From the NCBI RefSeq assembly GCF_003086695.1, contig NZ_CP025999.1, forward strand, positions 3,858,344-3,922,343: a DNA stretch of 64,000 nt, written 5' to 3'. This document shows positions 14,533 to 18,338 of the stretch, piece by piece. The DNA is from Stenotrophomonas sp. SAU14A_NAIMI4_8. GTDB lineage: Bacteria > Pseudomonadota > Gammaproteobacteria > Xanthomonadales > Xanthomonadaceae. The notes under the pieces were generated by a model. That model did not search any database. It was not told the origin of the DNA and worked only from the letters and a program-made list of their open reading frames with translations. Position numbers and translations under genes: made by a program. The first letter of the stretch is position 1. Every line of letters begins with the position of its first letter.

Positions 14533-14910
14533 TCAACGCCTGGCCATGGCCAGGACCTGGAACATCAAACCGACGGCGATACCGGCCAGCAGCGCCAATG
14601 CAGGCAGCTTGAAGACCAGGAACCCCACCAGCAGGACGCCGAAAACCACGACCCACTTGGCGACAATCGCGACAATCAGCCGCGCCATCGCCGAACCCGC
14701 TGCCACCGCCCCACCACTGAGCGCCATCCGTGCCGCGACCCAGCCACCGGCCGAGATCGCCACCCCGGACGCCAGGGCGCCAAGGGCGTACTTCGGCCCT
14801 ACCAGGAGGAAGGCCAGAGCCAGCACAGCGACTGCAGCCAGCGGGTAGACCGCGGCGCGCAGCATCAGTCGCCGACCCGCTTCAACGGAGTTCAGCACAG
14901 GACGTCCCAC
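14533..14910 (-). CDS. atpI: ATP synthase protein I (AtpI-like)
   Basis: 125 aa small membrane protein with four helices (about 20-38, 42-60, 80-96, 100-118). It is the first gene of the operon, as expected for the accessory protein AtpI, which helps assemble the c ring. The start is GTG at 14910 (GTGGGACGTCCT). No strong ribosome-binding site precedes it, in keeping with the low expression known for atpI elsewhere. Sequence identity to AtpI families is weak, so the call rests on position, size and topology. Confidence 0.82.
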   Translation of the reverse strand: MGRPVLNSVEAGRRLMLRAAVYPLAAVAVLALAFLLVGPKYALGALASGVAISAGGWVAARMALSGGAVAAGSAMARLIVAIVAKWVVVFGVLLVGFLVFKLPALALLAGIAVGLMFQVLAMARR

Positions 14911-14999: not shown

Positions 15000-15124
15000 C
15001 CGCTGCCTGTTCATCCCGGAAGCCGCAAGTTGCGGGAACGGCAGGTTTTTTACGGCCCAGCAGGGGGACAATGGCGTCCGCCGCATGCTGCAGCGCAGCG
15101 TATTGAACTTTGGTCGCACGGCCG

Positions 15125-15152
15125 GGAACTTTCCCGCGCGCCTGCAGTCTGA
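15125..15152 (+). promoter_or_regulatory. sigma-E (RpoE)-type promoter
   Basis: GGAACTT (15125-15131), 16 bases, then TCTGA (15148-15152). This matches the classic gammaproteobacterial sigma-E promoter in both boxes and in spacing. It points right, with no coding gene until 15363. Confidence 0.65.
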
Positions 15153-15157
15153 CCTTT

Positions 15158-15243
15158 CGACCTGCCTGCTGCACTTCCTCGTCGATGCTCCGCCCTGCAG
15201 GTCCCAGGATGGCCCCGAAGCGCGCTCCGGGGCCATCTTCTTT
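15158..15243 (+). ncRNA. candidate RpoE-dependent small RNA (about 86 nt)
   Basis: The predicted transcript starts about six bases after the sigma-E -10 box and ends at a rho-independent terminator (15209-15243). Its 5' part can fold by pairing GACCTGC (15159-15165) with GCAGGTC (15197-15203). The loop between them is C/U rich, with CTTCCTCG and GCTCCGCCC, i.e. complementary to purine-rich ribosome-binding sites. The 3' part is the terminator hairpin followed by CTTCTTT, the usual Hfq-binding form. No convincing reading frame or ribosome site is present. In enterobacteria sigma-E drives MicA and RybB, sRNAs that repress porin mRNAs; a like role here is inference. The exact 5' end is unproven. 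Confidence 0.55.
15209..15243 (+). terminator. orphan plus-strand rho-independent terminator
   Basis: ATGGCCCCG pairs exactly with CGGGGCCAT around a self-complementary AGCGCGCT core, then CTTCTTT. No plus-strand gene lies upstream (the atp genes are on the other strand), so it implies an unannotated transcript. Confidence 0.65.
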
Positions 15244-15362
15244 GCAACGTCATGACCGCGCTGAACCGTCCACGCAACGTGGACCATACGTTCACGTAGG
15301 GTGGACGCGCGCGTCCGGCACAGTGGCCTTCATCCCGAATGAACCACCGCAAGGACTTTCTG

Positions 15363-16181
15363 ATGCGCTCCGTACCCACCCTGCTCGCCCTCTCGCTGCT
15401 CGCCGCCGGCGCCTCCTTCGCTTCGTCCGCCCATGCTGCGGAAGGCGATGACCGCTTCGCCCTGCGCCTGGGTGCGATGAACATCGATTCGGACAACACG
15501 CTGCGTGGCCAGACCAACGTGGCCGGCCAGGACATCGGCTTCTCCGAGGACTTCAAGCTGGGCGGCAAGGAATGGGAACCGCGCATCGACGGCATGTTCC
15601 GCATCAGCGACCGCCAGCGCCTGCTGTTCAACTACTTCAAATACGACAAGGACCGCCGCGAGACGCTGGGCCAAGACATCACGTTCGGTGACGTCAACGT
15701 GCCGGCCGACAGCTTCGTCAAGGCCGAACTGAAGTACCAGGTGGCCAGCCTGGTGTACGACTACTCGGTGGTGGACACCGAAAAGTTCGACCTGGGCCTG
15801 CAGCTGGGTGCCGAGTACGCCAAGGTGAGCACCAAGGGCTATGCCGATCTGGGCACCGTGTACGAAGGCCAGTTCCTGGATGAGAAGGCTGACGGCGTGG
15901 CGCCGGTGGTCGGTGCGCGGCTGAGCTTCACCCCCTCTGAAAAGTGGATGATCACCCTGCAGGGCCAGTACCTGAACACCCGCTGGGGCAGCTTCGATGA
16001 CTACAAGGGCGACCTGAGCCGCGCCAATGCCATCGTTGATTACCGCTTCACCGACAACTTCGGCGTGTTCGCCGGCTACGACTGGTTCAAGCTGGACGTG
16101 GACCAGAAGGGCAGCGACGGCACCATCGGCCTGAAGCAGGAATTCAAGGGCCCGGTGGCCGGTATCAGCGTCAGCTTCTAA
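15363..16181 (+). CDS. outer-membrane beta-barrel protein
   Basis: 272 aa. The signal peptide is MRSVPTLLALSLLAAGASFASSAHA, cleaved before AEGDDRFALRLG. The mature part alternates polar and apolar residues with periodic aromatic strands (RISDRQRLLFNYFKYDKD, FDLGLQLGAEYAKV, WMITLQGQYLNTRW, FGVFAGYDWFKLDV) and ends in VAGISVSF: a C-terminal Phe, the BAM-recognition signal of outer-membrane barrels. About ten to twelve strands are likely. The ATG at 15363 has AAGGA seven bases upstream and is preferred to one at 15339. Function unknown. Two perfect hairpins (15269-15285, and GGACGCGCGCGTCC near 15312) precede it, and a strong terminator follows. Confidence 0.85.
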   Translation: MRSVPTLLALSLLAAGASFASSAHAAEGDDRFALRLGAMNIDSDNTLRGQTNVAGQDIGFSEDFKLGGKEWEPRIDGMFRISDRQRLLFNYFKYDKDRRETLGQDITFGDVNVPADSFVKAELKYQVASLVYDYSVVDTEKFDLGLQLGAEYAKVSTKGYADLGTVYEGQFLDEKADGVAPVVGARLSFTPSEKWMITLQGQYLNTRWGSFDDYKGDLSRANAIVDYRFTDNFGVFAGYDWFKLDVDQKGSDGTIGLKQEFKGPVAGISVSF

Positions 16182-16529: not shown

Positions 16530-18338
16530 TTACTTCTTCTTCGGCATGTACAGATCGGTGATGGTGCCGTCGTAGATTTCCGAGGCCATCGCCACCGATT
16601 CACTCAGCGTCGGGTGCGCGTGGATGGTGTGGCCGATGTCTTCGGCTTCGGCACCCATTTCGATGGCCAGGCCGATTTCGGCCAGCAGGTCACCGGCATG
16701 CACGCCAACGATGGCACCACCGATGATGCGGTGGGTCTCTTCGTCGAAGATCAGCTTGGTGAAGCCTTCGGTACGGCCGATGCCGATCGCGCGGCCGCTG
16801 GCGGCCCACGGGAACTTGGCCACGCCGACCTTCAGGCCCTTGGCCTTGGCTTCGGTTTCGGTCACGCCCACCCAGGCGATTTCCGGGTTGGTGTAGGCCA
16901 CCGACGGAATCACGCGGGCGACCCATTCCTTCTTGTGGCCGGCAGCCACTTCGGCGGCCAGCTTGCCTTCGTGCGTGGCCTTGTGGGCCAGCATCGGGTT
17001 GCCGACGATATCGCCGATGGCAAAGATGTGCGGCACGTTGGTGCGCATCTGCCGATCGACCGGAATGAAACCGCGATCGGTGACCTGCACGCCGGCCTTT
17101 TCAGCATCGATCTTCTTGCCGTTCGGCGAGCGGCCCACGGCCACCAGCACGCGATCGAAGGTGCCCTGCGCCAATGCCGGCGCCTGGCCTTCCTCGGCCG
17201 CTTCGAAGGTGACGGTGATGCCCTTGGCATCGGCGGTGACGCCGGACGCCTTGGTCTTCAGGTGCACTTCAATGCCCTGCTTCTTCAGGCGGTCGGCCAG
17301 CGGCTTGACCAGGTCCTTGTCGGCGCCCGGCATCAGCTGGTCCATGAACTCGACCACGGTGACCTTGCTGCCCAACGCGCCATACACGGTGGCCATTTCC
17401 AGGCCGATGATGCCGCCGCCGACGACCAGCAGCGAGCCCGGCACTTCGGCCAGCTCCAGCGCGTCGGTGGAATCCATCACGCGCTTGTCGTCCCACGGGA
17501 AGTTCGGCAGCTTCACCGCCTGCGAACCGGCGGCGATGATGCACTTCTGGAAGCGCAGCAGCTGGGTGCTGCCGTCAGCGGCAGTGATTTCCAGCTCGTT
17601 GGCGGAAACGAACTTGCCCACGCCCTGCACGCTGCGGACCTTGCGCTGCTTGGCCATGCCGGCCAGGCCCTTGGTCAGCTGGTTGACCACCTTTTCCTTG
17701 TACTGGCGCAGCTTGTCCAGGGTGATGGTCGGCTTGCCGAACTCGACGCCGAAATCGCCGGCATGGGCCACTTCGTCGATGACCGCCGCAGCGTGCAGCA
17801 GCGCCTTGGACGGAATGCAGCCCACGTTGAGGCAGACGCCGCCGAGGCTGGCGTAACGCTCCACCAGCACCGTGTCCAGGCCGACGTCGGCGGCGCGGAA
17901 GGCGGCGGTGTAGCCGCCCGGGCCCGAGCCCAGCACGACCATTTCGCATTCGATGTCGGCCGGCTTGCCGCTGGACAGCGCCGGCTTCGGCGCCGCCGGC
18001 TCGGCCGGAGCGCGGTGCGACGGGGTCACCGGCGGCTTGCTGGCCGGGGCGGCCGCAGCCGGGGCCGGCGCGGCGGCCTTGGCCGGGGCTTCGGCGGCGC
18101 CTTCAGCGTCCAGCAGCACGACCACGGCGCCTTCGGACAGCGTGTCGCCCAGCTTGACCTTGATTTCCTTGACCACACCGGCGGCCGACGACGGCACTTC
18201 CAGGGTGGCCTTGTCCGATTCCAGGGTCACCAGGCCCTGGTCCTTCTTCACCGTGTCGCCGACGGCGACCAACACTTCGATCACCGGCACATCGCTGTAA
18301 TCGCCGATGTCGGGAACCTTGACTTCAATCGTGGCCAT
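16530..18338 (-). CDS. lpdA: dihydrolipoamide dehydrogenase (E3) with N-terminal lipoyl domain
   Basis: 602 aa. Residues 1-80 form a biotinyl/lipoyl domain (EVKVPDIGDYSDVPVIEVLV) with the lipoylation Lys in ESDKATLEVPS. An Ala/Pro linker (about 85-135) follows, then the flavin disulphide reductase: FAD loop VVLGSGPGGYTAAFRAAD, redox pair GGVCLNVGCIPSKAL, NAD loop VVGGGIIGLEMATVYGALG, and the dimer-interface His-Glu in HAHPTLSE. It reoxidises dihydrolipoamide in the pyruvate dehydrogenase complex. E3 with its own lipoyl domain is known in Neisseria, Xanthomonads and a few others. The ATG at 18338 has AGGA eight bases upstream. It lies 106 bp after aceF and is co-directional. Confidence 0.97.
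   Translation of the reverse strand: MATIEVKVPDIGDYSDVPVIEVLVAVGDTVKKDQGLVTLESDKATLEVPSSAAGVVKEIKVKLGDTLSEGAVVVLLDAEGAAEAPAKAAAPAPAAAAPASKPPVTPSHRAPAEPAAPKPALSSGKPADIECEMVVLGSGPGGYTAAFRAADVGLDTVLVERYASLGGVCLNVGCIPSKALLHAAAVIDEVAHAGDFGVEFGKPTITLDKLRQYKEKVVNQLTKGLAGMAKQRKVRSVQGVGKFVSANELEITAADGSTQLLRFQKCIIAAGSQAVKLPNFPWDDKRVMDSTDALELAEVPGSLLVVGGGIIGLEMATVYGALGSKVTVVEFMDQLMPGADKDLVKPLADRLKKQGIEVHLKTKASGVTADAKGITVTFEAAEEGQAPALAQGTFDRVLVAVGRSPNGKKIDAEKAGVQVTDRGFIPVDRQMRTNVPHIFAIGDIVGNPMLAHKATHEGKLAAEVAAGHKKEWVARVIPSVAYTNPEIAWVGVTETEAKAKGLKVGVAKFPWAASGRAIGIGRTEGFTKLIFDEETHRIIGGAIVGVHAGDLLAEIGLAIEMGAEAEDIGHTIHAHPTLSESVAMASEIYDGTITDLYMPKKK

Follow-up and report, generated by a model that had tools for sequence, protein, structure and literature searches.

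The region between the atp operon and an outer-membrane β-barrel gene of Stenotrophomonas sp. SAU14A_NAIMI4_8 raises three questions: whether it encodes a small RNA, what would switch such an RNA on, and which mRNA it would act on. In the whole stretch of DNA that was analysed (the window; 64,000 nucleotides), the atp genes to the left of this region, named by eye, are on the minus strand, including an atpI-like gene beside atpB (14533..14910, also named by eye, with no Pfam match), and the β-barrel gene downstream (15363..16181; PF13505 at 26.8 bits, just below the cut-off of 28.7) is on the plus strand; an RNA read from the plus strand is therefore divergent from the atp operon. Because the atp genes are on the minus strand, no plus-strand gene lies upstream of the terminator described below, as the initial annotation had stated. 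Re-reading of the letters gives a sigma-E-type promoter on the plus strand, with the −35 box GGAACTT at 15125..15131 and, after 15 bases, the −10 box GTCTGA (GTCNNA) at 15147..15152. The annotated form GGAACTT-N16-TCTGA is the same promoter, the spacer count differing because TCTGA occupies 15148-15152. Over the 4.48-Mb genome, the pattern GGAACTT-N15-17-TCNGA has three occurrences, against one in the reversed control. An RNA of about 85 nucleotides agrees with the annotated length, and its expected 5' end, the seventh base after the −10 box, is 15159 instead of the annotated 15158, which places it at 15159..15243 on the plus strand. Most probably, the product of this locus is a short regulatory RNA that is divergently related to sX12, an RNA of plant pathogens.

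The predicted RNA contains two hairpins, both of which read as annotated. In stem 1, the 5' arm GACCTGC (15159..15165, plus strand) pairs with the 3' arm GCAGGTC (15197..15203, plus strand), and four of the seven pairs are changed on both sides among relatives. The loop carries the seed TCCTCGTCG (15176..15184, plus strand), which is complementary to CGACGAGGA. Within it, CTCGTCG (15178-15184) is invariant across the 49 rows of alignment A1, and 15178-15183 are predicted to be unpaired with p of at least 0.94 (0.40 for 15176, 0.36 for 15177 and 0.17 for 15184). The terminator-like hairpin with its T-rich tail spans 15206..15243 (plus strand; the hairpin itself 15206-15239), and its nine-pair stem is formed by GATGGCCCC (15208-15216) and GGGGCCATC (15229-15237) and is followed by TTCTTT (15238-15243). 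A simple terminator scan did not list the 15206-15239 hairpin, the T-run of which is poor. The segment 15158-15243 folds at −38.7 kcal/mol (z = −2.82), and 3 of 200 shuffled sequences folded equally well.

The structure was tested on A1 as a consensus fold extended by hand; the alignment omits the L079/L080/L084 group (L numbers denote loci) and keeps L113 and L116 although they are visibly misaligned in stem 1. This structure pairs 93.0% of cells, and both sides are changed in 12 of its 18 pairs. Its covariation score of 0.364 compares with 0.190 in shuffles, none of 500 being as high; on the weakest covariation measure, further pair types, 15 of the 500 shuffles did as well. Structures shifted by 1 to 3 columns leave only 35.6-50.9% of cells paired. 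In the terminator-like hairpin, 8 of the 11 modelled pairs have changes on both sides. The loop CCTCGTC stays while the stems covary, and loop lengths vary by one or two bases between relatives. That the promoter and the hairpins arose by chance, or that the region holds a short protein gene, to which the open reading frames crossing it might point, is extremely unlikely in view of the conservation, the covariation, these loop-length differences and the sX12 matches in Xanthomonas described below.

Within the genus, the locus DNA has matches in 59 of 91 genomes (E ≤ 0.001), and in 41 of the 59 (own genome included) the match spans most of the query; of 149 genomes sampled from the family, 10 match. 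The barrel protein was used as bait to retrieve 80 loci from named genomes, chiefly of Stenotrophomonas and Xanthomonas. In 78 of them, the −35 box, the −10 box and CTCGTC stand upstream of the barrel gene in this order, and the combination occurs nowhere else in the loci. One exception, L081, has the RNA according to the model (53.9 bits) with a −35 box of GGAACTC, and the other, L089, has no RNA above chance by the model. The promoter together with CCTCGTCG is present in 74 of the 80 loci, the exceptions being L079, L080, L081, L084, L089 and L104. In 85 rows chosen by.GAACTT, at least four of which are duplicate contigs, the −35 box is GGAACTT in 65 and TGAACTT in 20, and a G precedes the required TC in every one. 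Twelve of the 15 spacer positions are only 36-66% identical (76 sequences aligned gap-free, with the boxes fixed by selection). Thus, in the comparison of relatives that the initial annotation had proposed, the boxes and the loop are kept while the spacer and the flanks drift. Seven loci (L078, L079, L080, L082, L084, L085 and L092) have a second hairpin of the GGTGAGGTGG/CCACCTCACC type with no clear T-run, and their promoter and loop stay; L079, L080 and L084 carry ACTCGTCG in place of CCTCGTCG. A contig labelled Bacillus subtilis SK7B5 (L061) has a Stenotrophomonas-type barrel gene and small RNA locus, and this assembly is probably contaminated or mislabelled.

The relationship to sX12 (Rfam RF02231; gathering cut-off 106 bits) is visible through intermediates. 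At gathering thresholds, Rfam reports tRNA alone over the whole window, and the window RNA matches sX12 at 27.8 bits (E = 0.0025, model positions 1-78), below the cut-off, with the loop and the terminator aligned and stem 1 out of register. Among 12 relatives compared with Rfam, six match sX12 at E ≤ 1 and the remaining six do not. Two Xanthomonas RNAs at the same locus exceed the cut-off (L097, 108.2 bits; L087, 106.8 bits), followed by L112 (95.6), L091 (52.0), L101 (39.0) and L116 (36.1). Matches of L091 to ncS54 (36.9 bits, cut-off 43) and BjrC68 (22.7 bits, cut-off 39) were also obtained and rejected; both are below cut-off, and the displayed parts are the two stems, with part of each loop absent from the display. 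In L097, the first base of the sX12 model is the seventh base after the −10 box, the expected start site for such a promoter. A single alignment and a single model span the window RNA and sX12, with intermediates, and the atp operon lies beside both. The sX12 of X. campestris pv. vesicatoria (Xcv) has the same atp-side locus, two hairpins, promoter boxes and loop core (TCCTCGTCGA). By position and covariation, the window RNA is an orthologue of sX12; it is not a curated member because it reaches 27.8 bits versus a cut-off of 106, a cut-off that passes over most relatives. Stenotrophomonas relatives may already be included in the 2012 sX12 paper or in a Stenotrophomonas RNA survey.

The distribution of the RNA was determined with a model, R1, that covers the RNA and leaves out the promoter (match threshold E ≤ 0.01, the model E-values being rough). 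R1 matches 142 of 297 genomes of the family, in 34 of 54 genera. Its matches in the class sample (2 of 185 genomes, both of the own genus) and in the order sample (15 of 151, all of the own family) include no relative outside the family, and in the samples searched the RNA occurs in a single bacterial family. Of the matches, 40 were fetched, covering 32 genera; three of these 40 are contigs also present as rows of A1. The strict promoter pattern (GAACTT) lies upstream of 14 of the 40. The wider pattern [GT]GAAC-N16-18-GTC, which was adopted only after the sequences had been read, lies upstream of 37, versus 37 of 15406 random 51-mers from the same loci (0.24%), a control that used the wider form. 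The −35 box reads GGAACCT in many genera, and CTCGTC is present in 37 of the 40. One match, L219, looks like a false match of R1; L209 and L212 have variant promoter boxes by eye, and the loop is altered in each of the two members of genus g14 that were fetched.

These matches also bear on the possibility that the promoter drives the downstream barrel gene, the hairpins forming a leader or attenuator that governs read-through. The RNA is on the same strand as that gene and ends approximately 100-120 bases before it. However, of the 40 matches, 16 have a relative of the barrel gene downstream within the flank that was fetched, compared with 37 that have relatives of atpB and/or atpI upstream; promoter and protein match are separated by distances that vary between 209 and 551 bases in the rows displayed; the barrel gene has its own preceding inverted repeat in at least 38 of the 80 loci; and the Xanthomonas counterpart is a separate small RNA. 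A leader is thus very unlikely, and the barrel gene at 15363..16181 is a neighbour and no demonstrated part of the system. The inverted repeat, GGACCATACGTTCACGTAGGGTGGAC, is located at 15281-15306 in the window, ahead of the barrel gene; the count of loci with related forms was made with a strict pattern, and the repeat may be an operator of the barrel gene or an element of its promoter.

An sRNA with this promoter would be expected to respond to RpoE, and the own genome contains one gene above the RpoE family cut-off, followed by frames resembling rseA and mucD by eye. Upstream of this rpoE is TGAACTT-N15-GTCTCA, with which the RNA promoter shares the −35 core and the N15 spacing, the −10 boxes being GTCTGA and GTCTCA, respectively. 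The sigma-E consensus reported for X. campestris is GAACTT/TCTCA; the same report finds this form also before the rpoE of S. maltophilia, describes a reporter of the S. maltophilia rpoE promoter for use in mutants of rseA and of rseA/rpoE, and names a GAACCT variant upstream of smeIJK (PMC4229105), which is the variant in many genera of the R1 matches. TCTGA in the window is one base apart from TCTCA, at a position that varies among relatives. The annotation of a sigma-E-type promoter is upheld by the boxes kept in relatives and by the wider form before 37 of the 40 R1 matches; we infer from the promoter that the RNA depends on sigma-E, and it looks as if it is switched on by cell-envelope stress. 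A second exact promoter of this type, GGAACTT-N15-GTCTGA, is found elsewhere in the own genome (L149 1501-1540; C1:3282828-3282867). Its −10 box ends nine bases before an ATG, and the start of the encoded protein is signal-peptide-like; this gene is a candidate member of the sigma-E regulon with an almost absent leader.

In the literature, sX12 is described as a virulence sRNA in Xanthomonas, reportedly under HrpG/HrpX control in Xcv (PMC3771888) and not hrpG-dependent in X. campestris pv. raphani (PMC4652430), and it is assumed to be Hfq-independent (PMC6530196). One review states that sX12 could regulate HrpX expression (PMC10346379); others say so of sX13. The accessible portions of this literature on sX12 and Xanthomonas contain no tie to sigma-E or to a lipoprotein, and rpoE4 in a table is the sole mention of RpoE in them; the 2012 source paper may say more. 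Sigma-E does not explain the HrpG/HrpX control of sX12 as reported in the accessible part of that study (PMC3771888).

The loop was annotated as complementary to GAGG-type ribosome sites, and the sequences agree. In the own genome, CGACGAGG-N4-11-ATG occurs 33 times and ACGAGGA-N3-10-ATG occurs 28 times, versus 7 in each reversed control; by eye, many of these matches appear to be internal or out of frame (30 of the 33 of the CGACGAGG set were readable). The clearest start with a loop complement belongs to a 113-residue alanine-rich lipoprotein, AACGACGAGGATTCACACAATG. This protein has no Pfam match and only two meaningless NCBIfam rows, and naming it by protein search was spoiled by low complexity. 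Other starts with a loop complement in the own genome include those of L231, L246, lpdA at window position 18336, L121 and L139 (names by eye). L121 (minus strand) and L139, both near position 1501, are paralogous genes starting with MWWND, each with CCGACGAGGTA close before the ATG, and are a possible further pair of targets; other mRNAs with a loop complement at the start codon may be under control as well.

Relatives of the lipoprotein are present in 86 of 119 family genomes, and the start regions were read in 56 genomes, that of G023 being truncated where its contig ends. All 50 readable genomes with an R1 match have the ribosome site GACGAGGA of the lipoprotein gene, which is found likewise in 21 of 25 without one (5 from the first set and 20 fetched in addition). 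The one-sided Fisher p of 0.010 is uncorrected for relatedness and may reflect relatedness alone, because genomes without an R1 match are likely more divergent. In the four genomes lacking GACGAGGA, GAGGA (G004, G046 and G106) or AAAGGA (G018) is kept and the preceding GAC is absent. Where the RNA loop and the site were both read, CCTCGTC and GACGAGG occur together in 47 of 48 genomes, seven genomes being left out since the loop was unread by the pattern or there was no R1 match; G013 (genus g14) has an extra base in the loop and retains the target site. Contiguous pairing in the 47 genomes extends over 8 to 13 bases, 7 of which are given by selection. The flanks of the loop/target core show no clear co-variation across 25 genera (9.33 bases versus 9.09 when permuted; fraction 0.072). 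In the own genome, 14% of shuffled loops form a duplex with the lipoprotein site as strong as that of the actual loop, and in seven other genomes the value is 0.1-3.4%.

A sigma-E sRNA whose main activity lies elsewhere, as a broad anti-Shine-Dalgarno RNA acting weakly on many targets or as a protein sponge, would account for part of these data: CCUC is complementary to GAGG sites generally, both loop complements exceed their reversed controls before ATG, and the lipoprotein site is kept in 21 of the 25 genomes without a detected RNA. The conserved block, however, exceeds CCTC and reaches CCTCGTC, and the lipoprotein site extends likewise, so that we regard this alternative as unlikely.

The initial annotation had proposed porin mRNAs as targets, after the manner of MicA and RybB, and this proposal is not borne out by the barrel genes. 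None of GACGAGG, ACGAGG, CGAGG and GAGGA occurs within the 35 bases preceding the start of the seven strong barrel genes of this genome that have a readable start, or of the barrel gene at 15363; the start of an eighth strong match, L331, is ambiguous, and ten weaker matches were left out. In S. maltophilia, ompO (Smlt0387) is reported to fall approximately 200-fold in an ompA mutant and to recover on removal of rpoE, for which the authors suggested a sigma-factor switch (PMC10433810). This rpoE-dependent fall, together with the mode of action of E. coli sigma-E sRNAs (PMC8103513), would favour a MicA/RybB-like porin repressor with barrel mRNAs, either the neighbours or ompO, as its main targets. 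The readable barrel starts nevertheless have no complement to the conserved loop, and a porin repressor is improbable. L330 is likely the counterpart of ompO, by map position and length only, and has no complement to the loop before its start; another sigma-E-linked repressor may therefore exist. If L330 is the counterpart of ompO, the fall as described in the accessible part of that report (PMC10433810) is not explained by the RNA loop.

We consider it probable, on present sequence evidence, that the locus encodes an approximately 85-nt trans-acting sigma-E sRNA made under envelope stress, the loop of which blocks the ribosome site of the lipoprotein mRNA. A sigma-E sRNA with a loop complementary to a ribosome site is supported because the promoter, the covarying stems, the constant loop and the conserved lipoprotein site coincide with it. 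The comparison of relatives establishes the promoter architecture, the two hairpins with compensatory changes, the near-constant loop CCTCGTC(G) and the sX12 locus. In the proposed mechanism, envelope stress would free RpoE, and RNA polymerase with RpoE would start the RNA at 15159. The loop would then pair over approximately 8 or more bases with the ribosome-binding site of the lipoprotein mRNA (CGACGAGGA) and may thereby block synthesis of this small outer-membrane lipoprotein at translation, and the lipoprotein load would drop under stress, as it does for Lpp under MicL in E. coli. The first steps are suggested by promoter resemblance, and the last by complementarity and conservation.

Among known systems, MicL (SlrA) of E. 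coli parallels the proposed mechanism as a sigma-E-dependent sRNA that is reported to repress an outer-membrane lipoprotein, Lpp (PMC8103513, PMC6737893), and differs in that it is born within cutC and processed, whereas the window RNA has its own predicted promoter beside atp. The enterobacterial MicA and RybB are likewise reported to be short, to have a strong sigma-E promoter and to reduce the levels of envelope proteins (PMC8103513, PMC6737893); unlike them, the window RNA lacks support for porin targets, and a lipoprotein target of the MicL/Lpp kind fits better. MicL, MicA and RybB are absent from the Rfam matches, both over the window at gathering and over 15100-15300 at E up to 5. Within the Xanthomonadaceae, sX13 resembles the window RNA in being restricted to the family, in having a fixed locus and in its loops, which contain C, and it differs in lying downstream of polA, being constitutive and having targets with 4G motifs, as reported (PMC3771888).

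It is an even question whether sX12 and its relatives serve the whole Xanthomonas-Stenotrophomonas-Lysobacter family as a general sigma-E sRNA, one that evolved independently as the counterpart of MicL and whose fixed loop shuts off a conserved lipoprotein; the role of sX12 in Xanthomonas virulence would then follow from envelope homeostasis. If the reading proposed here is right, the promoter before matches of 32 genera, variants and one doubtful match counted, and the pairing site in 25 genera would give sX12 a regulator, a mechanism and a candidate target, all open to testing in harmless members of the family. There would be a MicL/Lpp parallel outside the enterobacteria, and a testable mechanism for an RNA that has been studied mainly in connection with plant disease.
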